Positions 2,494 to 31,699 of a stretch of DNA of 32,622 nt are shown one piece after another (within the stretch, counting starts at the first letter, position 1; each line of letters starts with the position of its first letter). Location of the stretch: contig JABIBA010000005.1 in the NCBI GenBank assembly GCA_018652955.1, positions 1-32,622 of the forward strand. The letters are read 5' to 3'. Both the position numbers and the translations under genes were made by a program. The notes beneath the pieces were generated by a model. It saw nothing but the letters and a program-made list of their open reading frames with translations. It searched no databases and was not told the DNA's origin. Source of the DNA: Candidatus Peribacter sp. (lineage in GTDB: Bacteria > Patescibacteriota > Gracilibacteria > Peribacterales > Peribacteraceae).

Positions 2494-3717
2494 TTAATTG
2501 AACTTGAGCCTTCCAAAGTTTTGAACCCACTCATCTTCAAACAGTCCAATACCAATTTCTTCGAACTCCGGTCGCAAAATATTTCGCCGGTGATTGGGGC
2601 TGTTCATCCAGTCTTCCATTACCTGCTTTACCGAAAGTTGTCCCTTAGCTAAGTTTTCTCCAAGTGAGAAGATTGGCTCACAGCTGCATTCTTGTAGACC
2701 TGTGAGGATAAAGTCGGGTCCTTGGTCTTCCACAGTAGATTCACCACCAAGGTCAAACTGTTGCGCACAGCTACAGGAATTTGGATTGATATCTAAGTAT
2801 CCACCTCCACGAATACGGTCAACGTAACTTAAGCCTTCTGGTGTGTAGTGACTAAAGTATCCGCGTTCTGCCATATCTTTTGCATGACGTTGTGCAGAAA
2901 CTTCAAGGTAGTAGTTACTTCTAATAGGAGTCAGTTTAAATTTCGCGCGCTCTTCGTTTACTGCATGGATCAAGTCGTTGCGTGTTTGCTCGGCGAGACT
3001 TCCTCGAGAACGAATGAGTCCAAGCACTGCAGACTTTACGGTTTTTGGTGTAGCGATATCGGTATAACTTTTTGCAAGTTTTGATGTCGTAGTAGCAACA
3101 GAGATCGTCACGTTTTCGAAGAACGAAGAACGTGAATCTTTCGGTGCGCTGTAGTGCTCCTCTTTTACAGGGAACATATCTGGCTCTGGCTGAAGAGATG
3201 GCTCTGCAGTAAGTAGTGTGTAAATCGCCATTGCCGCTTCTTTGTGCGTAATCTTAAGCTCTGGTTGAAAGAGATTAGGATTTTGTTTATTTCCAATAAG
3301 TTTATATCGCCAAGAAAGTCCCACATATGGACTGTAATTTGCGCCGACAGGAATATCTGTATATTGATAGGGGATGTTTGTCGTCAGATCGAACACCTTT
3401 GTCGTCATCATCAAAAACTCAGCGCGCGTTACAGATTTATGTGGATACGCAAAACTTGTAGAAGGGTCTGGGGTGAGCAATCCTAGTTTTATAGCTTTGA
3501 TCATATAGGGGGCATACCACTGACCATCGATCATGTCGGGGTAGTCTCCGAAGGTCTGCACATCTTTTTCTACAGTGATACCAGCGTTCTTCATAAGTAT
3601 CATTGCGGCCTCTGCCCTACGCACATAGGTGATAGGTTCTTGCGCTGCTCCAACGTTTATTAGAAGGGGAGCGAATGTAAGCAGGCCGATAAATACTGAA
3701 GATATAAATTTACGCAT
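2494..3717 (-). CDS. Secreted SLH-domain / CAP (SCP-like) protein
   Basis: 407 residues. A Sec signal peptide (about 1-25, cleavage after VGAA) is followed by two or three S-layer homology repeats (about 58-110 with the VTRAEF motif, about 118-169), a linker, and a C-terminal CAP/SCP domain (about 245-400). The CAP core shows VNEERAKFKLTPI, a His in GYFSHYTPEG, SLGENLAKG and DWMNSPNHRRNIL. SLH domains usually bind cell-wall polymer, so this should be a wall-attached exported protein; bacterial CAP domains have no settled activity. An insertion (about 312-347) contains two C-x-C pairs, echoing the Cys-rich neighbour. It converges on that neighbour with zero bases between stop codons. The start is the first ATG, supported by a TAGAAT element 10 nt upstream. 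Confidence 0.88.
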   Translation of the reverse strand: MRKFISSVFIGLLTFAPLLINVGAAQEPITYVRRAEAAMILMKNAGITVEKDVQTFGDYPDMIDGQWYAPYMIKAIKLGLLTPDPSTSFAYPHKSVTRAEFLMMTTKVFDLTTNIPYQYTDIPVGANYSPYVGLSWRYKLIGNKQNPNLFQPELKITHKEAAMAIYTLLTAEPSLQPEPDMFPVKEEHYSAPKDSRSSFFENVTISVATTTSKLAKSYTDIATPKTVKSAVLGLIRSRGSLAEQTRNDLIHAVNEERAKFKLTPIRSNYYLEVSAQRHAKDMAERGYFSHYTPEGLSYVDRIRGGGYLDINPNSCSCAQQFDLGGESTVEDQGPDFILTGLQECSCEPIFSLGENLAKGQLSVKQVMEDWMNSPNHRRNILRPEFEEIGIGLFEDEWVQNFGRLKFN

Positions 3718-18803: not shown

Positions 18804-18872
18804 AAAAACCCAAAATGAGCCTAAAGATTGAGCCTGATTTACTTACTAATATACGGCTCAAGATTTTTTACA
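18804..18872 (-). terminator. Possible terminator-like end of purC
   Basis: On the minus strand TTGAGCC ... GGCTCAA can pair across about 20 nt, overlapping the purC 3' end, and GGGTTTTT follows some distance downstream. The stem-to-T-run distance is not ideal, so the call is tentative. Confidence 0.3.
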
Positions 18873-19828
18873 ATTCTTGATGGAATATCTGGGTCATTTG
18901 GAATGACAAATGTGCCGCCAGTAACCTTTTCAAAGAGCTCAATATATTTGGTTCCAAGCATAACGCGAACCTCATCAGTGATTTCGGGCCATGTCGATTT
19001 ATCACCATATTCAAAGCCCTGTTCTCGTAGCCAAAGACGGAAAAATTCCTTATCCAAACTCTCTGGCTCTTGCCCCGCATCGAACCGCTCTTGGTAGGAA
19101 TTTTCCACCCAGAAGCGTGAAGAATCTGGTGTGTGGACCTCATCTGCGATCGTAAGAACGCCGTTTTCGTCGTATCCCATCTCATATTTGGTATCAACAA
19201 GGATCAAACCTCTTTGTGCTGCCAATTCCTGCCCTCTTCGGAATACGGCAAAGGCCTTTTCTTCGATCTCAGCCCATTGCTCAGGGGTCGATAATCCTTG
19301 TTCAAAAATCCCATTAGCATCAATCAATTCATCATCTTCGCCCTTTGTTGTAGGGGTTAGAATGATATCGTCAAACTTCTGGTTTTTAACCATTCCCTCT
19401 GGGAGGGTATTTCCGCAGTAATTTCGCACTCCTTCTTTGTAATTTACCCATACGGCAGTTTTACTGGATCCTGTTAGATAAGCGCGAACGACTATCTCTA
19501 CAGGGATCATAGTAAGATCCTTCACAACGACGACATTTGGATCTGGGTTTTCGATAACCTGCGTTGCCATAATATCGCTGATTTGGTCGAACCACCATGA
19601 GCTAATTTGAGTCAAAACTTGCCCTTTTAGAGGAATAGTTGTCCAGTTAATATCAAAAGCGGACTGCCTATCTGTCGCAACGAGGAATCGTCTCTTCTGG
19701 TCCTTTTGAAGGTATACATCGCGAACCTTACCGCCATAGCGCTCTCCAAGACCTTGCAAATCAGTTGTTTCAAGCGTTGTGTCAAGAAAGGGCTCTAGGG
19801 CCGATGATGTGAGGGCTGTATTTGTCAT
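18839..19828 (-). CDS. purC: SAICAR synthetase (PurC)
   Basis: 329 residues, the longer type of the family. Motifs in order are YGGKVRDVYLQKDQKRRFLV, ATDRQSAFDINWTTIPLKG, VLTQISSWWFD, MIPVEIVVRAYLTGSS, LILVDTKYEMGYDENG, LTIADEVHTPDSSRFW, and the end GTKYIELFEKVTGGTF. It joins aspartate to CAIR in de novo purine synthesis. It stands alone, without other pur genes. It is divergent from the giant gene; the 141-bp gap holds both promoters. Confidence 0.96.
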   Translation of the reverse strand: MTNTALTSSALEPFLDTTLETTDLQGLGERYGGKVRDVYLQKDQKRRFLVATDRQSAFDINWTTIPLKGQVLTQISSWWFDQISDIMATQVIENPDPNVVVVKDLTMIPVEIVVRAYLTGSSKTAVWVNYKEGVRNYCGNTLPEGMVKNQKFDDIILTPTTKGEDDELIDANGIFEQGLSTPEQWAEIEEKAFAVFRRGQELAAQRGLILVDTKYEMGYDENGVLTIADEVHTPDSSRFWVENSYQERFDAGQEPESLDKEFFRLWLREQGFEYGDKSTWPEITDEVRVMLGTKYIELFEKVTGGTFVIPNDPDIPSRIVKNLEPYISK

Positions 19829-19841
19829 AATTTATGCTCAT

Positions 19842-19871
19842 ATCGTACATGTTCTAGGCTCATTTCTACAA
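19842..19871 (-). promoter_or_regulatory. Promoter of purC
   Basis: On the minus strand TTGTAG (19866-19871), 18-nt spacer, TACGAT (19842-19847), with 13 nt to the ATG. The same TTGTAG -35 is seen at 12295. Confidence 0.45.
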
Positions 19872-19881
19872 AAAAACCCAA

Positions 19882-19910
19882 TTGAGAAAAAGCTGTTTTT
19901 CGGCTATAAT
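19882..19910 (+). promoter_or_regulatory. Promoter of the giant surface-protein gene
   Basis: TTGAGA (19882-19887), 17-nt spacer, TATAAT (19905-19910). This is the best match to the housekeeping consensus in the window. A leader of about 53 nt follows, carrying a perfect palindrome. Confidence 0.75.
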
Positions 19911-19935: not shown

Positions 19936-19952
19936 ATGAGCCTCAGGCTCAT
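19936..19952. promoter_or_regulatory. Leader hairpin ATGAGCC-TCA-GGCTCAT
   Basis: A 7-bp perfect stem with 3-nt loop in the 5' leader of the giant gene. On the minus strand it is followed by TGGGTTTTTTTT and would act as a terminator for antisense transcription. On the plus strand it is a leader stem-loop. Near-identical palindromes recur at 20236-20249 and 20662-20676 within the gene. Confidence 0.6.
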
Positions 19953-19969
19953 CCACACAAACACTACAC

Positions 19970-22900
19970 ATGACATCAGAAGTCGACTTCCTCCTCCCGG
20001 GATCTATAGAAAATATTCACCAAGCAGTGAATAGTTTTTCTGGAGAGGGTTCACTTCTTAAACTTACGAAGAAGCAGAGGCAGCAGTGGATCTCAACTCT
20101 TCTTGGTTCATGTGAATATGATCAACTGTCAAGAAATGACAAAGGTCTCGTTCGCCAATATATTCAAAATGAAACAGGGTACTCCAGAGCACAAACTGCG
20201 AGACTGATTAGTTCGAGTCTCAAGGCTATTCGCACTGAGCCTCAGGTTCTTATGCCACAGGTGGAAGCAAAGAAGCTTTTGCCACTACGAACAATCACAC
20301 TTACATCTGCTGTAGGAGTAATGCTCCTTCTCGTAATGTCTCGTCCAGAAACGGGGATCGAATTTCTCAATGCTGATGTGCAGAAGACTCTCACGGTCTC
20401 ATCAGAGATTCCCAAGGATCCATTTGATCCTAAAGATCCAGAACTAACTCAGGCAGTTCCCGTTCGTACGACTGTATATTCCTTGCTAGATTCTGGTAAG
20501 CACCCACTCTTCGTTCAGCAAGAGAACGTAGCATTCTCTGCAGACGTCGCCGTTGCATACGAAAAGATCGTAGCGGTGACAGTTTCAGAGTTAGAGAAGC
20601 GTGTTGCTCTGCGTCGCAGTTTACGGTCCTTAAGGACAGCGTTTACAACTGCTGTGCGTCCTGAGCCTCAGGCTCAAGAGATGAAACAGGCCGCACCATC
20701 ATCTACTGAGGTAGTTGAGCAAGTTTCCGGACATCGCATTCTGCGACTTGGTGCATCTACTATTAACCAAGAGGGAGCTGTAACACAGGTTCGTGGTCGT
20801 ACAACTGCACATGATACACGTGCAGGATTGATGGCTGATATATTCAGGCGAGCTGCACAGCGCAGAGCTGCTAGGATTGTGTTCGTCCCAGAAGAAGATC
20901 GTTACAGTCCTCCAGAGGTGGTGCATGCAAGTGCGGGGCCAATCTACGCATCTGCTCCAAACATCTGGAATGCAATGGGGAGTGGAGATGACGGACAGGT
21001 ATTGATGGTAGTTGATGGAACACCGCAGTGGACATTCATCAACAAGACCAATGTAGAGCAACTCCCATCTGGATATGTGAGTCGTCGTGGAGGAGGAAGT
21101 GGACGAGGAGGCGGAGGTGGAGGAGGTGGATCTTCTGGATCCGATGGAGCTGCAGGTGCAGATGGAGCTGCGGGAGCAGCAGGTGCTTCAGGTGCTGACG
21201 GAGCAGATGGTCCTACACTTGGAATCTATAACTCACTCATCCTTGAAAGTTCTGGAGGCCTAGAAGCTGGAAATGCCAGCGGACAGAAGCTTATACAAGT
21301 AGGACTACTTACATCATCTGGAAAATTGATTGTCGAAAATGATGTTCGGTTTAATTCTGGTGTGATCATCAACGGAGTGTCATACCTCTTCCCATCTTCT
21401 GATGGCAGCGCTTCTGGGAAAGTACTGCATACAGACGGTAATGGAAACCTAAGCTGGTCTACAGATGACGGTGCTGGAGGGGGAACAACAGAGTATGCAG
21501 GTCAGGGACTGAACAAAAATGGAGATAATTTCATTTCTCTCAATTCAGCTCTTACTGGAACAGACATTCTCGCTCTCAACTCGCTCCGATCAAGCGGAAC
21601 ATTAGTAGTTGCAGGGACATCTACGCTCTCTGGAGCTGTGACGATCAACGATGAAATCGCCTTTGGTTCTGGTCTCATCATCAACGGTGTTACCTACAGA
21701 TACCCAAGTTCAGATGGATCTGCTTCTGGAAAGGTTCTTTCGACAGATGGAAATGGAAACCTCTCTTGGTCTGATGATGACACAGGAGGCTCATCTCTCT
21801 CTGCAGGGCAGGGAATAAGTATCGCTTCAGACTTCATCACATTAACTTCAACACTCACAGGAACATCTGTTCACGCTATCGATCGCCTCTCTTCTTCTGG
21901 AGTATTGCTTGTCGATGGGGATGCAGATATTCGTGGAATTCTTTCGGGTGCTGTAGTGAAGGCAACAAACAGCCTCGCATCCTCTGGATCTCTCCAGGTA
22001 GAAGGTGCTGCTAATATTCACGGAACACTCTCAGGAAACACGATTGCAGGATTCAATCTTTCCGATTGTAATGGCGCATCAAACAAGCTTGTCTACAACG
22101 CAGCAAGTCAGCGATTTGAGTGTGAAGGGGATACTGATACCACCATTGCAGATACAGATACCACATACACAGAAGGCCAAGGCTTAACCCTTGATGGAAC
22201 AACTTTCTCCCTAACAGCTGCACATTCAGGAACAACTATCGAAGGAACAACTCTCCTTTCTGGAGCCCTTGTTCACGCTCAAAATGGACTGACATCATCT
22301 GGAACTCTTCAGGTAGATGGAGCTGTAGAATTTGGATCCACACTCACGATTGGAGGAGTGACCTATGTCTTCCCTGTAGGAAATGCTTCTGCCACAGGAA
22401 AAGTCCTTAAGTCAGATGGAAGTGGAAACCTCTCATGGTCTGACGATACCGATACCACTGTTGCAGATACCGACACGACCTACAGTGCAGGACAGGGAAC
22501 AAGTATCGATGGCGCTAACTTCATCACGCTCTCAGCAACACTCACTGGAACAGATATCCTCGCACTCAACTCTCTACGTTCCTCAGGAACGTTAGTGGTT
22601 AAAGGCGCATCAACACTCTCTGGAACGACCACTATTCAAGATGATCTCATCGCAAACTCTGGAGCAATCTTTAATGACGAAGTAGTCTTCGGTTCAGGAA
22701 TCATCATCGAGAATATTACCTATCACTTCCCACAAGCGGAGGGAGCGTCAGGTACTGTTCTTGCAACAGATGGAGGAGGAAATCTTACATGGACAACTGC
22801 AGCTTCTTCTCTCTCTGCAGGGCAGGGAATCAGTATTGATTCAGACTTCATCACTCTCACAGAAACCCTCACAGGAACATCACTTCAAGTTTCTGACTCA

Positions 22901-25900
22901 CTCGCTTCCTCCGGAACATTGGTTGTAGAAGGAGATACAGAGCTTCATGGCAATCTCTCAGGTTCTACTATTCAAGCTGCAACATCCCTCACAACTTCTG
23001 GAACTCTCGTTACAGAAGGGGATGCTACTATCAATGGAACTTTGAGTACAAATACGATTACTCGTATTGGCGATGATGATACTAATATAAACTTAGGAAA
23101 TAGTGATCAAATATACTTAAGAGCTGGTGGAATTGACTTTATAGACATGAATGAAACATTTGAAGATATTCTAACATTCAACCCTGCAAGTAATGATATT
23201 GATACAATTATTGAGGGAGATAATGATCTTTATTTATTCTATGCAGATGCAGGAACTGATCGTATTGGTATTAGTACAGATGCACCAGATACAAAACTAG
23301 AAGTAGTAGGCACTATCTCTGGTTCTCAGGTCTACGCAGCGGACACGCTTCGCTCTTCTGGAGCATTAATTGTAGATGGAGATACCTTCCTCGATGGTGA
23401 AGTTACCTTCGGGTCTGGCCTCATCATCAACGGTGTCACTTACAGATTTCCAAGCTCAGATGGTTCTGCCACAGGAAAAGTCTTGGCTACAGATGGTAAT
23501 GGAAACCTCAGCTGGACTACGGCTGCTGCAGGAGGATCAACCTACTACGGAGGACAGGGGATTAGTATTAACGGATCAGACTTCATCACACTTTCATCAA
23601 CTCTTACAGGAACAGATATCCTTGCTCTCAACTCTCTTCGTTCATCTGGAACCTTAGTCGTTGCAGGAGCATCTACTCTTTCTGGAACGACCACTATCCA
23701 AGATGATCTCATCGCAAACTCTGGAGCAATCTTTAATGACGAAGTGGTCTTTGGTTCAGGGCTCATCATCAACGGAATTACGTATCTATATCCAGATTCC
23801 GATGGTTCTGCAAACCAAGTACTCCACACAGATGGAAACGGAAATCTTACATGGGCTGCAGATGATGGAGCTGGTGGAGGGTCTACAGAAGACGCAGGTC
23901 AGGGACTTTCTAAAAATGGTTCAGACTTTATTAGTCTTAGTGCTGCATTTACTGGAACAGATATCCTTGCTCTCAACTCTCTTCGCAGTTCCGGAACTCT
24001 AGTAGTTGCAGGAACATCTACATTGTCTGGAGCTGTGACAATCAACGATGAAGTGACTTTCGGATCAGGATTGATCATCAACGGAGTCACATATCTCTAT
24101 CCAAGTTCAGATGGTTCTGCAAACCAAGTACTCCACACGGATGGAAATGGAAATCTTACATGGGCTGCAGATGATGGAGCTGGTGGAGGATCTACAGAAG
24201 ATGCAGGTCAGGGACTTTCTAAAAATGGTGCAGACTTCATTAGCTTGAATGCAACTATTACTGGATCAGATATCCTCGCCCTTGATTCTCTACGATCAAG
24301 TGGAACCCTAGTCGTAGCAGGAACATCCACACTCTCTGGAACGACCACTATTCAAGATGATCTCATCGCAAACTCTGGAGCAGTCTTTAATGACGAAGTA
24401 GTCTTCGGTTCAGGAATCATCATCGAGAATATTACCTATCACTTCCCACAAGCGCAGGGAGCGTCAGGTACTGTTCTTGCAACAGATGGAGGTGGAAACC
24501 TCACATGGACAACTGCAGCTTCTTCCCTCTCTGCAGGGCAGGGAATCAGTATTAGTTCTGACTTCATCACTCTCACTTCTACACTAACAGGATCTTCAGT
24601 CCACGCTATCGATCGACTCTCTTCATCCGGAGTCTTACTCGTAGATGGTGATGCAGATATCCGTGGAATCCTTTCGGGTGCTATTGTAAAAGCTGCTACA
24701 ACCCTTACATCTTCTGGATCTCTTCAGGTAGAAGGTGCTGCCAATGTTCACGGAACACTCTCTGGAAACACTATCACAGGATTCAATCTTGCTGACTGTA
24801 ACGGTTCTTCTAACAAATTAGTCTACAACGCAGCAAACCAACGATTTGAATGTGAAACAGATACCGATACAACAATTGCAGATACAGATACCACGTACAC
24901 AGAAGGTCAAGGTCTTACCCTTGATGGAACAACGTTCTCCCTAACAGCTGCACATTCAGGAACAACTATCGAAGGAACAACTCTCCTTTCTGGAGCCCTT
25001 GTTCACGCTCAAAACGGATTGACATCATCTGGAACTCTTCAGGTAGATGGAGCTGTAGAATTTGGATCCACACTCACGATTGGAGGAGTACTTTACATCT
25101 TCCCAGTGGGAGACGGGTCAGCTACTGGAAAAGTTCTCAAGACTGACGGTAGCGGAAACCTCAGCTGGAGTGATGACACAGACACAACAATTGCAGACAC
25201 AGATACAACATACAGTGCAGGTCAGGGAGTAAGTATTGATGGATCTAATTTCATCACCCTCACTTCAACCCTTACAGGAACATCTGTTCACGCTATCGAT
25301 CGTCTCTCATCTTCTGGAGTACTTGTTGTCGATGGTGATGCAGATATTCGTGGAATCCTCTCTGGCTCTATCGTCAAAGCTGCAACAACCCTTACATCCT
25401 CTGGATCTCTCCAGATAGAAGGTGCTGCCAATATTCACGGAACACTCTCAGGAAACACGATTGCAGGATTCAATCTTTCCGATTGTAATGGCGCATCAAA
25501 CAAGCTTGTCTACAACGCAGCAAATCAACGATTTGAATGTGAAGGAGATACCGATACAACAATTGCAGATACTGATACCACGTACACAGAAGGCCAAGGT
25601 CTGACCCTCGACGGAACAACTTTCTCCCTAACAGCTGCACATTCAGGAACAACTATCGAAGGAACAACTCTCCTTTCTGGAGCCCTTGTTCACGCTCAAA
25701 ACGGACTGACATCATCTGGAACTCTTCAGGTAGATGGAGCTGTTGAATTTGGATCTACACTCACCATTGGAGGAGTGACCTATGTCTTCCCTGTTGGAAA
25801 CGGATCTGCCACAGGAAAAGTCCTCAAAACAGACGGCTCAGGAAACCTCTCATGGTCTGACGATACGGATACCACCATTGCAGATACGGACACTACCTAC

Positions 25901-28900
25901 GATGGAGGACAGGGAATTTCTATCGATGGAAACAACTTCATCACCCTATCAGCGACTCTTACTGGAACAGATATCCTCGCATTAAATTCACTTCGATCAA
26001 GTGGAACCTTAGTAGTTGCAGGAACATCGACACTCTCTGGAGCTGTGACCATCAACGACGAAGTCACCTTCGGTTCAGGGCTTATTATTAACGGAATCAC
26101 TTACAGATTCCCAGGTTCAGATGGTTCTGCAAACCAAGTACTGCACACAGACGGAAACGGAAACCTCACATGGGCTGCAGATGATAGTGGAGCTGGTGCT
26201 CTTTCTGCAGGTCAGGGAATCAGTATCAACGGATCTGACTTTATTGTCCTTACTTCAACACTTACAGGATCTTCAGTTCACGCTATCGATCGACTCTCTT
26301 CTTCTGGAGTATTGCTTGTCGATGGTGATGCAGATATCCGAGGAATCCTCTCGGGTGCTATTGTTAAGGCAACAAATAGTCTCACTTCTTCAGGAACTTT
26401 GGTTGTAGAGAAAGATGCAAGATTTAATTCTGGTATAACTATCCAAACAACAACAGATGCTATTACTGCCTTCCAAGTTCTAGATGCAAATGGAGGACGT
26501 TCTATATTGAATGTTGATACAACAAACGAGAGAGTAGGTATAGGAACAGATACACCTACTGTAAAACTTCAAGTTCAAAATAATGCAGGTACCACTCCTT
26601 CATATGAAAGTAATACTGTTGCTGGTTTTTCAAATACAGCTGGAGGAACTAGTGAGGCATTTATTGCAGTTGCAGGAGGATCTGTTGGAGTATCTGGATA
26701 TAATTTCGGTTCCAGTGGAGATTCAGACGATGGACAAATCCTTTACAGAAAATCACTCAATAAACTCGAATTCGTTGCTGATAAAGTGACACAATTCTCT
26801 ATCGATTCGAGTGGTATAGCCTCAGGATTGTATCTCCATGCACAAGGTTTGCTTACCTCTTCAGGTGCATTTGCTGTCGAAGGAGATTCATATTTACAGG
26901 GAGAAGTCACCTTCGGTTCAGGAATCATCATCGAGAATATTACCTATCACTTCCCACAGGCTGAGGGAGCGTCAGGTACTGTTCTTGCAACAGATGGAGG
27001 TGGAAATCTCACGTGGACAACTGCAGCTTCTTCTCTCTCTGCAGGTCAAGGAATTTCAATTGCTTCAGACTTCATTACTCTCACATCAACCCTCACAGGA
27101 ACATCACTCCAAGTCTCTGACTCACTCGCTTCCTCTGGAACATTGGTTGTAGAAGGAGATACAGAGCTTCATGGAAACCTCTCAGGTTCTACTATTCAAG
27201 CAGCAACATCCCTTACAACTTCTGGCACCTTGGTTGCAGAAGGAGATGCGGACATTCATGGGACACTCTCTGGTGCAACAGTCCGTTCAAGTTCTGGCCT
27301 AGTAGTACTCAATGGAAGGATGGGTATTGGTACTGACACACCAAAAACATCTTTGCACATTTTCGATGGTGTCTCAGGTGGAACACCAGATAGTGGTACA
27401 CGTCTTCTTATAGAAGATAACACCACTGCACGTCTAGAATTCCTTGTACCAGGTGATGGAATCTCTGCAGGTATTTACTTTAGTGATGCTGCTGAAGCTG
27501 GTATTGGTCAGATAAATTATAGTCATACGTCAGATCAAATGCTCCTTGAGGCTGAGGACGCTGTGAGTTTCCGAGTAGGTAACATCAGTAATCGAATGAT
27601 CATTAACTCTGGTGGAAATGTTGGTATTGGTATGGGGACAGATCTTTCTCCAGAAGCAAAACTCGAAGTCATAGGTGCTATTTCTGGTTCTAAAATTTAT
27701 GCAAATGACATTCTGCAATCTTCTGGTGCGCTTGCCATTGAAGGGGATTCCTTCCTTGCGGGAGAAGTCACCTTCGGATCAGGACTCATCATCAACGGAG
27801 TGACGTACAGATTCCCAGGTTCCGATGGCTCTGCAAACCAAGTATTGCACACAGATGGAAACGGAAACTTATCATGGGCTGCTGATGACGGTTCTGGAGG
27901 AGGGTCTACAGAAGACGCAGGTCAGGGACTAACTAAAAATGGCGCAGACTTTATTAGTCTTAATGCTGCATTTACAGGAACAGATATCCTTGCATTAAGC
28001 TCACTTCGATCAAGTGGAACTCTCGTCGTAGCAGGAACATCTACACTCTCTGGAGCGGTCACGATCAACGATGAAGTCGCCTTTGGTTCAGGTCTTATTA
28101 TCAACGGTGTCACCTACAGATTCCCAAGTTCAGATGGTTCTGCTTCTGGAAAAGTATTGGCAACAGACAGTAATGGAAACCTGAGTTGGACAGCTGCTGG
28201 AGCTGGAGGATCAACATATTATGGTGGGCAGGGAATTAGTATCAACGGATCAGACTTCATCACTCTTACATCAACACTTACAGGAACATCAGTCCATGCA
28301 TCAGACTACTTGGCATCATCTGGAGTGCTTGTGGTGGAAAACGCCGCAACTACTACAGGTGCATACATCGAACAAATTGGTAATGGAATGGCAATGGTGG
28401 TTGAATCGAGTGCTACGACTCAAGATATTCTTACAATCTCTGGTGCTAGGCTTACTACAGGATTTGCTATAGATATTCCAAATCTTGATTCTCTCACTGC
28501 ATCAGGAGGAGGATTGCGCATTATCAGCAACTCTAGCAATACTGGGGTGAGAAACCTTGTAGAACTCTTTAACGATAATCCTGCAGCAAGTGGTACGACT
28601 GTACTTTCTATAAGACAGGATGCTGGTGGTACAGGTGTTTCTATTGATATGAATGGAGATGGTGTTGCATTGGATATTGATTCAGAAGCAGATAGTGAAG
28701 CAGGTATCCGCATCAGTATGAATGCAAAGAATGCGAATGACAGAAATCATCTTTCATTTGGATACAATAATCTCTTTGATGCCAATCTCTTCCGCAGTGA
28801 AGAAAATACACTCACGACAAGTGGGGCATTTGTTATAGATCCTCACGGGTTTGATAGCGTGTTCTATTTCGACAGTGCAACGTATAATGACCATACCGCA

Positions 28901-31699
28901 GAGGCAAATACGTCATCTGGTACGCAATTTACAATTTTAGGGAGTAATGCAGATTTCTTATATGTTGGTTCTCATACGCCATTTGGTGTTGTCGATTTCA
29001 ATATAGGAACACCAATGAATGCTGGTATGCACTTACAGCTGGATTACTACAATGGTTCGTGGTCTAGCATTGGCTTCAAAGATAACACAGCATCATTTTC
29101 TAGTGGTGGGATGATCACGTTTAATGCACCAACAGACTGGAGTAAGACACAACTAGAGATGGAGCCAGAGCCTGTCTACTACGTCCGTTTTTATGTTGAT
29201 AGCGAAAGCACCATTACCCGAGGATCAACGGCATACTCTGTTTCTCCGTCACAGGGATATCGATTTAAGGTTCACAGTCAGTCTGGAGATCCAGAGCCGA
29301 CATTCATTGTAGATTCCTACAAGCATGCAGCGTTCGGTACAGGGTATGATCTTCAAGCAGCTGCGACAATTTACACAGAGCGAGACTTTAATCAAGAAGC
29401 CCTGCTTATCAAGACAGATGAAAATACTGCTACACAAAATGTTTTCCGTATTATCTCGGATGTAGCTTCTGATAACGATAATGCCTTCCGTATTAGAGCG
29501 GATGGTTCAACGTTCTCCGACAATGCATACAGTGCTTCTGGAGCTGACTACGCTGAATGGTTTGCAACACGTGATGATGTGCAAAAAGGAGAAGTGGTAT
29601 GTATCTCTGTTGATCAGAACAATGCAGTAGAGCGTTGTACCGATGATGCAGATAGCAATGTGATGGGAGTGGTATCCACCAATCCAGCATTTATTGGAAA
29701 TACCATTACAGGAGCAGATGGAGTAATGCCTCCTGGATATGCATTGATCGGTCTTATCGGACAGGTGCCAACGAAGGTTCTCATAGCTCCATATGGAGAA
29801 GGGGTTCTCAACATTAGTCCAGGTGATGCGCTTACTCCTGCAAGCAAGCCTGGGTACGCACGAAGAGCGCTTCCAGGAGAGCCAACAGTGGGTGTCGCCT
29901 TAGAGAGGTTTGAAGGAAAAAGTGGTACAGAAGGAACAGTAAATGTACTGATCTCTCGCCGCAATAGTTCTGTAACAGTAGATCAAGTAGAACAGGAAGT
30001 ACTTGATCAAATCGCCTCTATGGAAATAGAGGACGAAGTGGAAATTATGGTTGCTGGAGCTATTGAGGCAATTGACTTCAACGACGATATCCTTGCTGTT
30101 GTCCGTCAGCAAATACAAGAAGTTGATTTGCGACAAACGGTTCTCGATATTCTTGAAGAAGCTGGTATCGGTACAGGAACAACGGTCGCCACACAGGAGC
30201 AGCACAATGTACAGATGTTAGCTGTAGAGCTTGGAACTGGGTCTGCTCTTTGGGGAATAGTGGATACACTCGAAGCAGAGATTGCACAGTTGCGAGAAGG
30301 AATGCAGATTATGAGTGGTGCAATCGCTACCCACCCTGAGAACTTCGAAAACCTCTCTATTGCAGACACTTTAATGATTGGTGGAGATGCGAGAGCGGTT
30401 AAAGACTTCTACGTCGATGGCACTCTGCATGCAGAAGACATCTTTGTTCCGGGACTTATTCATATTGATGGAAGAGTGGATATAACAGGGAATATGGATA
30501 TTGCAGGTGATACAGAAATAGCAGGAAGACTGACTGCAGGTTCATTCGAAATCAATAGTGGAGCGACTGTTCATGGGCCACTACACATCGACGGTGTACT
30601 AGTGATCGACGGACAGGAAATCGATCTTTCCGGTCTTGTTTCTACAGGATCAATGCTCAACCTCAGTAGTCTTCTCGTACAAAACTCTATGATGGTTCTT
30701 GGAAATATTACTATCGATGGCATGGCAGAGATCCTTGGTGATGTTACTATCGGAGGAAGTCTAACTGTCTCTGGAGCCCTTACCATAAACAATAACCAGG
30801 CAGGGTATGCAGTAGTTGTCGAAACAGGAACATCGGCAATCGTAAGCTTTGGATCTGGTACCTATTCGTATCCACCAATAATCACTGCGAGTTCTGATAA
30901 CTTTATTCCATGGCGTATTCACAGTGTGACGGGAACAGGATTCGTTATCGAAACCAAAGAGCAAGCTGCAGAAGATATTACGTTCTCATGGCATGCAATG
31001 CTTACGGAAGATCCGAATACCTTTAAGGGACTCCCTGCAGGAGCTAGCGTAAACGACATCGCATTCTTTGTAGATAACAATGGAGTACCGCTAAGTACCA
31101 GTGATATCTGGAATGCATGTATCAGAAACCAGCAACCACTGGGTCTTGATGGTAAGCCATTTAATTGCCGCCGATACAGAGATAGTGGCGAGAAGTGGAC
31201 GCACCCAGATCACCCAATTGAATTCCTCTGGGATCCAGATGCAAACGATCTGCGTCTCGTAATTCCACGTGGATACTACATTGAGGTTGTCGGAGAAGTA
31301 GAAGAGGAGATAGATGAGCCGGAGATCAAGGAGGCTACAGAAAGCGAGAAGACCGAAGAGGAAGAGGTAGAATCCGGAACTGGAGAAACAGTGGTAGAAG
31401 AGGAAGAAGTAGAAACAGGAACAGGAACAGGTGAAGTCATCATCGAAGAAAAACCAGAAACAGGAACAGGTGAAGTCGTCATCGAAGAGAATCCTGAAAC
31501 AGGAACAGGTGAAACGGTTATCGAAAAGCAAGAACCAGAACCAGAGCCAGAGCCAGAACCAGAACCAGAGCCAGAACCGCAGCCTGAACCAGAACCAGAA
31601 TCGCAGCCAGAACCTGCGCCAGAGCCAGAGTCAGAACCGCAGCCTGAACCAGAACCAGAACCTGAACCAGAATCTGAAGAGGAATCGTCAGAAGAATAA
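19970..31699 (+). CDS. Giant membrane-anchored modular fibre protein with N-terminal helix-turn-helix
   Basis: 3909 residues. Cytoplasmic N-terminus (1-104): LTKKQRQQWI ... LSRNDKGLVRQYI ... TGYSRAQTARLI, resembling the N-terminal HTH of IS/integrase-type transposases. One transmembrane segment (about 107-123) after Lys/Arg gives an N-in anchor. A Gly-rich hinge and eight collagen-like G-X-Y triplets (about 372-416) follow. Residues about 457-2790 are an array of 14 modules centred on FGSG-IINGVTY-FP, alternating with SSGTLVV, TDGNGNLSW and SAGQGISI segments, plus three inserts carrying GI(G/S)TD(T/A)P or GIGMGTD motifs as in phage tail fibres. About 2960-3100 is a beta-sandwich-like unit (W...F...G.I.FNAPTDW...YYVRF). 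About 3188-3335 (SGADYAEWFATRDDVQKGEV) resembles the Peptidase_G2/IMC autoprocessing region. Then come a coiled coil (3338-3400), bactofilin-like beta repeats (3460-3610), a beta domain and an acidic Glu-Pro tail (3776-3909). Likely a trimeric surface fibre or adhesin; function inferred. Confidence 0.9.
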   Translation: MTSEVDFLLPGSIENIHQAVNSFSGEGSLLKLTKKQRQQWISTLLGSCEYDQLSRNDKGLVRQYIQNETGYSRAQTARLISSSLKAIRTEPQVLMPQVEAKKLLPLRTITLTSAVGVMLLLVMSRPETGIEFLNADVQKTLTVSSEIPKDPFDPKDPELTQAVPVRTTVYSLLDSGKHPLFVQQENVAFSADVAVAYEKIVAVTVSELEKRVALRRSLRSLRTAFTTAVRPEPQAQEMKQAAPSSTEVVEQVSGHRILRLGASTINQEGAVTQVRGRTTAHDTRAGLMADIFRRAAQRRAARIVFVPEEDRYSPPEVVHASAGPIYASAPNIWNAMGSGDDGQVLMVVDGTPQWTFINKTNVEQLPSGYVSRRGGGSGRGGGGGGGGSSGSDGAAGADGAAGAAGASGADGADGPTLGIYNSLILESSGGLEAGNASGQKLIQVGLLTSSGKLIVENDVRFNSGVIINGVSYLFPSSDGSASGKVLHTDGNGNLSWSTDDGAGGGTTEYAGQGLNKNGDNFISLNSALTGTDILALNSLRSSGTLVVAGTSTLSGAVTINDEIAFGSGLIINGVTYRYPSSDGSASGKVLSTDGNGNLSWSDDDTGGSSLSAGQGISIASDFITLTSTLTGTSVHAIDRLSSSGVLLVDGDADIRGILSGAVVKATNSLASSGSLQVEGAANIHGTLSGNTIAGFNLSDCNGASNKLVYNAASQRFECEGDTDTTIADTDTTYTEGQGLTLDGTTFSLTAAHSGTTIEGTTLLSGALVHAQNGLTSSGTLQVDGAVEFGSTLTIGGVTYVFPVGNASATGKVLKSDGSGNLSWSDDTDTTVADTDTTYSAGQGTSIDGANFITLSATLTGTDILALNSLRSSGTLVVKGASTLSGTTTIQDDLIANSGAIFNDEVVFGSGIIIENITYHFPQAEGASGTVLATDGGGNLTWTTAASSLSAGQGISIDSDFITLTETLTGTSLQVSDSLASSGTLVVEGDTELHGNLSGSTIQAATSLTTSGTLVTEGDATINGTLSTNTITRIGDDDTNINLGNSDQIYLRAGGIDFIDMNETFEDILTFNPASNDIDTIIEGDNDLYLFYADAGTDRIGISTDAPDTKLEVVGTISGSQVYAADTLRSSGALIVDGDTFLDGEVTFGSGLIINGVTYRFPSSDGSATGKVLATDGNGNLSWTTAAAGGSTYYGGQGISINGSDFITLSSTLTGTDILALNSLRSSGTLVVAGASTLSGTTTIQDDLIANSGAIFNDEVVFGSGLIINGITYLYPDSDGSANQVLHTDGNGNLTWAADDGAGGGSTEDAGQGLSKNGSDFISLSAAFTGTDILALNSLRSSGTLVVAGTSTLSGAVTINDEVTFGSGLIINGVTYLYPSSDGSANQVLHTDGNGNLTWAADDGAGGGSTEDAGQGLSKNGADFISLNATITGSDILALDSLRSSGTLVVAGTSTLSGTTTIQDDLIANSGAVFNDEVVFGSGIIIENITYHFPQAQGASGTVLATDGGGNLTWTTAASSLSAGQGISISSDFITLTSTLTGSSVHAIDRLSSSGVLLVDGDADIRGILSGAIVKAATTLTSSGSLQVEGAANVHGTLSGNTITGFNLADCNGSSNKLVYNAANQRFECETDTDTTIADTDTTYTEGQGLTLDGTTFSLTAAHSGTTIEGTTLLSGALVHAQNGLTSSGTLQVDGAVEFGSTLTIGGVLYIFPVGDGSATGKVLKTDGSGNLSWSDDTDTTIADTDTTYSAGQGVSIDGSNFITLTSTLTGTSVHAIDRLSSSGVLVVDGDADIRGILSGSIVKAATTLTSSGSLQIEGAANIHGTLSGNTIAGFNLSDCNGASNKLVYNAANQRFECEGDTDTTIADTDTTYTEGQGLTLDGTTFSLTAAHSGTTIEGTTLLSGALVHAQNGLTSSGTLQVDGAVEFGSTLTIGGVTYVFPVGNGSATGKVLKTDGSGNLSWSDDTDTTIADTDTTYDGGQGISIDGNNFITLSATLTGTDILALNSLRSSGTLVVAGTSTLSGAVTINDEVTFGSGLIINGITYRFPGSDGSANQVLHTDGNGNLTWAADDSGAGALSAGQGISINGSDFIVLTSTLTGSSVHAIDRLSSSGVLLVDGDADIRGILSGAIVKATNSLTSSGTLVVEKDARFNSGITIQTTTDAITAFQVLDANGGRSILNVDTTNERVGIGTDTPTVKLQVQNNAGTTPSYESNTVAGFSNTAGGTSEAFIAVAGGSVGVSGYNFGSSGDSDDGQILYRKSLNKLEFVADKVTQFSIDSSGIASGLYLHAQGLLTSSGAFAVEGDSYLQGEVTFGSGIIIENITYHFPQAEGASGTVLATDGGGNLTWTTAASSLSAGQGISIASDFITLTSTLTGTSLQVSDSLASSGTLVVEGDTELHGNLSGSTIQAATSLTTSGTLVAEGDADIHGTLSGATVRSSSGLVVLNGRMGIGTDTPKTSLHIFDGVSGGTPDSGTRLLIEDNTTARLEFLVPGDGISAGIYFSDAAEAGIGQINYSHTSDQMLLEAEDAVSFRVGNISNRMIINSGGNVGIGMGTDLSPEAKLEVIGAISGSKIYANDILQSSGALAIEGDSFLAGEVTFGSGLIINGVTYRFPGSDGSANQVLHTDGNGNLSWAADDGSGGGSTEDAGQGLTKNGADFISLNAAFTGTDILALSSLRSSGTLVVAGTSTLSGAVTINDEVAFGSGLIINGVTYRFPSSDGSASGKVLATDSNGNLSWTAAGAGGSTYYGGQGISINGSDFITLTSTLTGTSVHASDYLASSGVLVVENAATTTGAYIEQIGNGMAMVVESSATTQDILTISGARLTTGFAIDIPNLDSLTASGGGLRIISNSSNTGVRNLVELFNDNPAASGTTVLSIRQDAGGTGVSIDMNGDGVALDIDSEADSEAGIRISMNAKNANDRNHLSFGYNNLFDANLFRSEENTLTTSGAFVIDPHGFDSVFYFDSATYNDHTAEANTSSGTQFTILGSNADFLYVGSHTPFGVVDFNIGTPMNAGMHLQLDYYNGSWSSIGFKDNTASFSSGGMITFNAPTDWSKTQLEMEPEPVYYVRFYVDSESTITRGSTAYSVSPSQGYRFKVHSQSGDPEPTFIVDSYKHAAFGTGYDLQAAATIYTERDFNQEALLIKTDENTATQNVFRIISDVASDNDNAFRIRADGSTFSDNAYSASGADYAEWFATRDDVQKGEVVCISVDQNNAVERCTDDADSNVMGVVSTNPAFIGNTITGADGVMPPGYALIGLIGQVPTKVLIAPYGEGVLNISPGDALTPASKPGYARRALPGEPTVGVALERFEGKSGTEGTVNVLISRRNSSVTVDQVEQEVLDQIASMEIEDEVEIMVAGAIEAIDFNDDILAVVRQQIQEVDLRQTVLDILEEAGIGTGTTVATQEQHNVQMLAVELGTGSALWGIVDTLEAEIAQLREGMQIMSGAIATHPENFENLSIADTLMIGGDARAVKDFYVDGTLHAEDIFVPGLIHIDGRVDITGNMDIAGDTEIAGRLTAGSFEINSGATVHGPLHIDGVLVIDGQEIDLSGLVSTGSMLNLSSLLVQNSMMVLGNITIDGMAEILGDVTIGGSLTVSGALTINNNQAGYAVVVETGTSAIVSFGSGTYSYPPIITASSDNFIPWRIHSVTGTGFVIETKEQAAEDITFSWHAMLTEDPNTFKGLPAGASVNDIAFFVDNNGVPLSTSDIWNACIRNQQPLGLDGKPFNCRRYRDSGEKWTHPDHPIEFLWDPDANDLRLVIPRGYYIEVVGEVEEEIDEPEIKEATESEKTEEEEVESGTGETVVEEEEVETGTGTGEVIIEEKPETGTGEVVIEENPETGTGETVIEKQEPEPEPEPEPEPEPEPQPEPEPESQPEPAPEPESEPQPEPEPEPEPESEEESSEE
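21146..21217 (+). repeat. Short collagen-like G-X-Y coding stretch
   Basis: Eight Gly-X-Y triplets rich in Ala and Asp, preceded by a poly-Gly segment. Short collagen-like runs often promote trimerisation, which fits a fibre. Only one hinge-type stretch is present. Confidence 0.7.
21340..28330 (+). repeat. Array of 14 fibre modules
   Basis: The FGSG-type motif recurs at about 21350, 21662, 22331, 22688, 23408, 23750, 24059, 24405, 25066, 25746, 26069, 26915, 27774 and 28082. Spacings fall into classes: about 308-357 bp (short), 661-719 bp (long) and about 850 bp (with inserts). Segments 22613-22837 and 24329-24553 differ at 6 of 225 bases; 22191-22359 and 24921-25089 at 3 of 169. The 22021 region recurs at 25438 at an in-frame offset of 3417 bp. 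Confidence 0.9.
31421..31690 (+). repeat. Tail repeats: 39-bp units then Glu-Pro dipeptides
   Basis: Three 13-residue units (GTGEVIIEEKPET, GTGEVVIEENPET and a third beginning GTGETVIEK) are followed by a long run of Glu-Pro/Gln-Pro dipeptides from six-base units (GAACCA/GAGCCA). The tail is rigid, acidic and probably extended. It carries no visible C-terminal anchor or sorting signal. Confidence 0.85.

Follow-up and report, generated by a model that had tools for sequence, protein, structure and literature searches.

The giant fibre protein encoded in the window (the whole 32,622-nucleotide stretch of DNA analyzed here) appears to be a membrane-anchored autoregulator, probably a repressor of its own gene, whose helix-turn-helix (HTH) domain and operator would have been captured together from the end of an insertion sequence (IS); we assign this reading a probability of about 0.6. 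At the sequence level, the homology of the domain, the architecture of the protein, the common DNA word, the position of that word, and the controls are firmly established. From these we infer DNA binding, membrane topology, and repression rather than activation.

Architecture of the fibre gene and its relationship to transposases

The fibre gene, its promoter, and the candidate sites around it have the following layout, with positions counted in the window.

19970 to 31699, plus strand: fibre gene with the order HTH, transmembrane segment (TM), fibre; open reading frame of 3,909 aa without internal stops, N-terminal order conserved in relatives
20069 to 20236, plus strand: transposase-derived HTH, residues 34 to 89, with homology over residues ~10 to 90 (from homology and AlphaFold2)
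20174 to 20194, plus strand: TGYSRAQ, the turn and the start of the recognition helix; the GYSR residue tracks the DNA word
20288 to 20341, plus strand: TM, residues ~107 to 124, expected N-in/C-out from hydropathy and charges only
19905 to 19910, plus strand: -10 box TATAAT (CGGCTATAAT), consensus-like in 33 to 34 of 37 relatives
19937 to 19951, plus strand: main putative operator TGAGCCTCAGGCTCA, with the -10 box 26 bp before it and the ATG 18 bp after it
19856 to 19862, plus strand: half-site AGGCTCA located 81 bp before the operator, a distance that is 82 bp in three congeners
20236 to 20250, plus strand: intragenic imperfect site TGAGCCTCAGGTTCT, 2 mismatches
20662 to 20676, plus strand: perfect palindrome TGAGCCTCAGGCTCA inside the gene; the genome has no exact copies beyond this one and the main operator
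18816 to 18835, plus strand: distal direct half-site pair TGAGCCT-N6-TGAGCCT, in the 37-bp gap between the convergent genes for DUF192 and purC
18839 to 19828, minus strand: purC (SAICAR synthetase), divergent neighbor with a promoter region in common with the fibre gene

The source genome (1.2 Mb, 17 contigs) has its closest relatives in the named collection among Ca. Peribacter and Ca. Peregrinibacteria MAGs. The earlier note on this DNA had described a 3,909-residue open reading frame with transposase-like motifs at its N terminus, followed by a TM stretch; all of this is present, and it is not a product of chance, as the HTH segment has matches in 32 of 96 relative genomes, with E values down to 9e-34. 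The motifs are LTKKQRQ (residues 32 to 38), SRNDKGLVRQYI (54 to 65), and TGYSRAQTARLI (69 to 80). The hydrophobic stretch extends over residues ~105 to 124 (KD of 1.80 in the best 19-residue window), with a weak charge difference around the TM (0 before, -2 after), and is followed by a Gly-rich stretch, a long fibre of beta-type repeats, and a Glu/Pro-rich tail. Near the C terminus, a weak bactofilin-like match (positions 30410 to 30580, residues 3481 to 3537, E value of 0.0012) stays below the curated cutoff. Another conserved C-terminal domain (DYAEWF..GVVSTNP, positions 29420 to 29869) recurs in 45 of 70 family genomes, in fibres that have the HTH as well as in those that do not, and has no clear family in Pfam or PHROGs. 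A second likely surface protein of the window, with CAP and SLH domains, is encoded at positions 2494 to 3717 on the minus strand.

An AlphaFold2 model built from an alignment of 45 sequences places helices at residues 34 to 47, 55 to 69, and 73 to 89 (pLDDT of 92 to 97 over residues 11 to 90), the last two being arranged as an HTH around TGY. The domain is very small for fold comparison, and searches of solved structures gave no significant match; the best rows obtained with Foldseek and VIA-align were mixed helical proteins, including the HOXB13 homeodomain (Z of 4.4) and the Trp repressor (Z of 3.3). Pfam, NCBIfam, and PHROGs hold no significant family for the HTH itself, and neither Pfam nor NCBIfam matched an OmpR-type winged helix in the fibre protein up to an E value of 10. 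As the earlier note had stated, no transposase catalytic domain is fused to the HTH: a domain search of the 3,909 residues gave only the weak bactofilin-like match and no rve (DDE) domain, and rve was found in the transposases L061 and L062, which served as positive controls.

The transposase origin that the same note had suspected is borne out by collinearity and by phylogeny. Along its full ~85 residues, the N-domain (residues 1 to 90) aligns collinearly with the HTH at the N terminus of rve-type transposases, and tblastn comparisons across fibres and transposases returned E values from 9e-32 to 5e-4, with an invariant Y, TGYSRA, and R. Two wider screens, a profile search covering 380 genomes of the phylum and a scan for the motif TGYSRA[QH]x[ATE]R across 84,980 species, recovered transposases or fragments thereof outside the family, and no fibre with this HTH; the matches carry rve and align with the fibre N-domain at full length. 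In a tree of 58 HTHs based on 75 columns, the 32 fibre HTHs form one clade that faces the 26 transposases (support of 99/94), neither side being nested in the other, a pattern that fits a single capture event. Because the transposases have a much wider host range, the capture probably ran from transposase to fibre.

Within the family, the architecture recurs across Ca. Peribacteria; the earlier note had called for a search of CPR genomes for it. A profile search located the HTH in 39 of 74 genomes, and the domestication surmised there takes the form of one family of 37 fibre genes with an N-terminal HTH, which were all examined; nearly all of their frames run into fibre or end at a contig edge. 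The order HTH, TM, fibre is also general, with a TM candidate (by hydropathy) 30 to 122 residues after the GYSR motif in all 29 of 29 loci and a motif of the type GQVLM..G..W behind it in most of them. Tandem HTH copies occur at the N terminus of single fibre proteins, three in L036 (G023:C11) and two in L050 (G013:C38). Among congeners, the part from helix 2 to the recognition helix is 79 to 90% identical, compared with 29 to 63% in the rest of the domain. As in transposase-host fusions, a transposase-derived domain has been attached to a host protein and stays conserved there.

A DNA word at fibre promoters and insertion sequence ends

Upstream of the fibre genes, a palindrome TGAGCCTNAGGCTCA, mostly in the form TGAGCCT-N-AGGCTCA, lies between the -10 box and the ATG, and counted from the GYSR codon, the TGAGCCY word stands at about -240. 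Within a 135-bp leader window, at least one half-site is present in 36 of the 37 fibre promoters and at least two in 29 of them, compared with 4.2% and 1.1%, respectively, of 2,709 background windows. An unbiased count of 7-mers ranks AGGCTCA first (34 of 37 genes); the fibre gene of L052 is without an exact half-site and has the near match GGAGCCTGAGGCTCC. Family-wide, 29 of 32 exact copies of the 13-bp core GAGCCTNAGGCTC are located on the contig of a fibre locus, and the core is held by 21 of 30 genomes with the HTH versus 0 of 27 without it. The window's genome contains two exact palindrome copies only, at 19937 and 20662, both in the fibre locus, and a search for a wider regulon, defined by half-sites paired within 30 bp, found none elsewhere in this genome. 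Fibre relatives without the HTH had a half-site in 0 of 8 cases (-300 to +60), including a paralogue in G033 and the genome's own second fibre (L202 on G000:C1).

The left operator arm lies 7 to 30 bp after the -10 box, at distances grouped around 8, 18, and 28 bp. A period of 10.5 bp fits these distances best (R of 0.62, P of 0.0003, one value per genus), a helical phasing that points to RNA polymerase being contacted from a single face of the helix. The half-sites themselves vary in arrangement, with a spacer of 0 or 1, head-to-head, or separate, and therefore fit half-sites on DNA better than an RNA stem. Two further origins of the palindrome were considered and rejected, namely, a coding remnant (the leader frames differ, reading SLRLI, EPEAH, and SGSF) and an intrinsic terminator (no conserved T-run lies behind it). 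Farther upstream, the DUF192/purC gap holds full palindromes in G001, G003, and G004. The locus L039 (G050:C86) has sites at -4262, -3070, -1292, and -243 relative to the GYSR codon, and in L039 and L036 palindromes or half-site pairs are found in several neighboring intergenic regions, including just before dprA.

The same word marks the insertion sequences that encode this HTH. Relative to the GYSR codon, each of the 17 checked has TGAGCCY near -278 and/or -242, and in 9 transposases among those with readable 3' ends, an inverted TGAGCCY is located close to where the gene or element terminates; the IS ends carry single half-sites. Related IS ends, as read from the flanks with provisional boundaries, resemble AGTCTT..TTCCAAT; for the IS1202 family, TGT/ACA outer ends and target duplications of 3 to 5, >15, or 0 bp have been described (PMC10132070). 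Given that one word is common to IS ends and fibre promoters, HTH and word look as if they had been captured together from a left IS end. The earlier note had seen no IS ends, and this needs correction: a relic of one is present in the TGAGCCT palindrome at 19937 to 19951, which lies outside the segment described there.

Recognition helix and word also change jointly. In a grouping of helices by residue, made after the data were seen, GYSR helices pair with CC before TG/CG in 15 lineages (TGAGCCTG, TGGCCTG, CGACCTG, TGACCCTG, and TGAGCCCG), TGAGCATG is the partner of helices that have T, N, S, E, or P at the arginine position, and ..ACTG that of helices with K, D, or H at this position; CC before TG occurs in 0 of 9 non-R lineages. 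The strongly changed helix GYADDS pairs with ACACCC. In the fibres, SRA is kept in all aligned HTHs and TGAGCC is kept in the promoters. Because of this co-conservation and the joint changes of helix and word, we strongly infer that the fibre HTH still reads TGAGCCY, and, if this is true, the pairings would make a helix-to-word code readable for this HTH family. Four in-family transposases of the same HTH lineage (L061, L062, L211, and L212) have the words ATGACCCTG, ATGAGACTG, and, twice, TGAGCATG, in contrast to TGAGCCT in most relatives from other groups, changes that possibly reflect avoidance of the fibre HTH.

A second family of HTH fibres

About a dozen family genomes encode a second transposase-type HTH (HTH_28, E value of 2e-4; HTH_Tnp_IS630, E value of 1.5e-3; both under the curated cutoffs) that is unrelated to the first and fused to a TM and another type of fibre (ASSWNPTLLVNTEAFQ..).

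L275 to L289 (e.g., L276, 866 to 2525, and L288, 1654 to 4738), also L254 and L270 to L273: second-family loci
L276: second-family HTH, candidate target CTGTATCGCGACAG

The promoters of this family carry the palindrome TGTNNCGNNACA 9 to 29 bp after the -10 box, perfectly in 9 of 13 compared with 0 of 575 background windows, and in 10 of the 13 another copy (at least 11/12) lies upstream of the -10 box. The two words do not cross: the first is found in 0 of 13 second-family promoters and the second in 0 of 28 promoters with the first. Among the few readable ends of the IS481-type relatives of the second HTH, TGTNNCGNNACA is absent, and cocapture is unsupported there. In G049 (L198, 2457 to 3233, plus strand) and G022 (L197, 13393 to 14244, minus strand), a separate open reading frame with HTH and TM lies directly upstream of a fibre frame without HTH and overlaps it.

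That this arrangement recurs with a different HTH and a different operator speaks more strongly than any other observation for a functioning design rather than a relic. It is tempting to generalize that the fibres of Ca. Peribacteria act as their own transmembrane transcription factors, so that fibre number or state is read out at the gene, and that this design arose at least twice from unrelated transposase-type HTHs and palindromic operators placed after the -10 box, one HTH with its operator coming from an IS end; we consider the odds of this wider proposition to be even.

Proposed autoregulation, alternative readings, and known systems

Under autoregulation, the left end of an IS would have supplied HTH and operator to an ancestor of Ca. 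Peribacteria. The HTH would lie in the cytoplasm, followed by a single TM helix and ~3,780 residues outside, and would bind TGAGCCY half-sites, usually as an inverted pair, in its own gene's promoter, directly behind the -10 box. Membrane-inserted fibres would occupy this operator, perhaps with a bridge to the upstream and the distal sites, and occupancy would block further fibre transcription; few fibres would be made per cell, and fibre loss would reopen the gene. Since the word of the HTH stands at the gene's own promoter, control of this gene by the membrane-anchored fibre itself is probable, and repression is preferred because a site just after the -10 box normally blocks transcription. 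The operator position suits a repressor, and an activator or a pure anchor is compatible with it, too. Regulation of its own promoter, which this position favors, is a reading absent from the earlier note. Of the functions proposed there, DNA tethering and one-component regulation from the membrane are both possible, and tethering of mRNA is without support.

The extra upstream and distal half-sites leave room for looping or anchoring, and the distal and intragenic sites suggest more than a simple operator. A membrane-held HTH might bind a cluster of sites and thereby keep the fibre gene near the place of fibre insertion, with little effect on transcription. Sites away from promoters speak for this: clusters lie 0.45 to 2.3 kb upstream in 9 of 30 loci (background windows, 3 of 96), G050 has four palindrome-like sites spread over 4 kb, and the window has intragenic sites. 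CadC illustrates that a membrane regulator can locate its DNA site and be positioned by it (PMC6320335). However, one near-universal, helically phased site sits at the -10 box of the gene's own promoter, and paired sites at a single locus of the window's genome are few for a general anchor, which makes this role unlikely. Even less is to be expected of a one-component surface sensor in which contact with, or loading of, the fibre alters the grip of the HTH on DNA and switches the gene on or off. Its layout of a cytoplasmic DNA-binding domain, one TM, and a large outer part is that of receptors of the ToxR/CadC type, but no sensor domain or signal path was found and targets beyond its own locus are not evident; sensing is compatible with autoregulation as an added layer.

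The 5' module looks inherited as a unit, with the same -240 spacing as in the IS, and the palindrome could form a small RNA stem, so that it might be a passive IS-end relic or a leader hairpin whose word the HTH no longer reads. This is very improbable, since a 7-bp word in 36 of 37 diverged genes needs selection, half-sites change in order, spacing, and orientation, with uncompensated arm changes that a hairpin could not tolerate, IS ends have single half-sites, and fibres without the HTH are without the word. The HTH that precedes the TM in RodZ can have a protein-protein role. An analogous use, with a cytoskeletal or secretion partner in place of DNA, is most improbable here: the fibre protein has no match to the RodZ-type HTH (HTH_25) up to an E value of 10, and recognition helix and DNA word are co-conserved. 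We give equally slight credence to competition of the HTH with same-family transposases for IS ends. All four in-family transposases use changed words, as if avoiding a host domain, yet the window's genome has no such transposase by profile, and membrane anchor, fibre, and operator would be left unexplained.

If autoregulation holds, a structural surface protein would sense its own presence in the membrane and control its own gene without a separate regulator, which suits small genomes and would concern a group, the Peribacteria, with hardly any known regulation of surface proteins. It would also represent a transposase-host fusion from bacteria whose domain and operator were acquired jointly, and would allow a direct test of whether a gene can be held or silenced by its own membrane-bound product.

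PutA-type enzymes offer a precedent for a product that has another job, acts at the membrane, and also represses the gene encoding it; PutA, however, is an enzyme, neither transposase-derived nor a transmembrane fibre. With the rve transposases (IS481/IS3-like, annotated as ISNCY; L109 and L120 to L135), a lineage scoring far below the IS481 cutoff, the fibre has in common the first HTH, TGYSRAQ, and TGAGCCT at about -240. Unlike them, it lacks both a catalytic domain and a right IS end, and continues into TM and fibre instead. In a review of recruited prokaryotic mobile elements, the passages on recruited regulators name phage and toxin-antitoxin HTHs as sources and contain no transposase HTH (PMC8987985), and the pertinent passages of the first Peribacteria genome paper describe large variable exported proteins and hold nothing on this HTH domain (PMC4736985).

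In its predicted layout of a cytoplasmic N-terminal DNA-binding domain, a single TM, and an outer domain, the fibre protein resembles ToxR and CadC (PMC6320335, PMC5430869), and a comparable action on DNA from the membrane is expected. ToxR and CadC, in contrast, use an OmpR-type winged helix and not a transposase-derived HTH, and the outer part of the fibre protein is a giant structural fibre whose evident target is its own gene. TldR, a TnpB-derived flagellin regulator, is likewise a protein of mobile-element origin that now regulates a filament on the bacterial surface, but it is RNA-guided and encoded apart from the filament protein (PMC13418256). Comparable in origin are SETMAR (PMC6326780) and ADF-1L (PMC11893794), in which a transposase DNA-binding domain was fused to, or kept as, a host protein that still targets transposon-end words; the transposon-derived ADF-1L acts on its own gene (PMC11893794). 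Both are eukaryotic nuclear proteins, whereas the fibre is a bacterial membrane surface protein with a putatively cocaptured operator at its own promoter.
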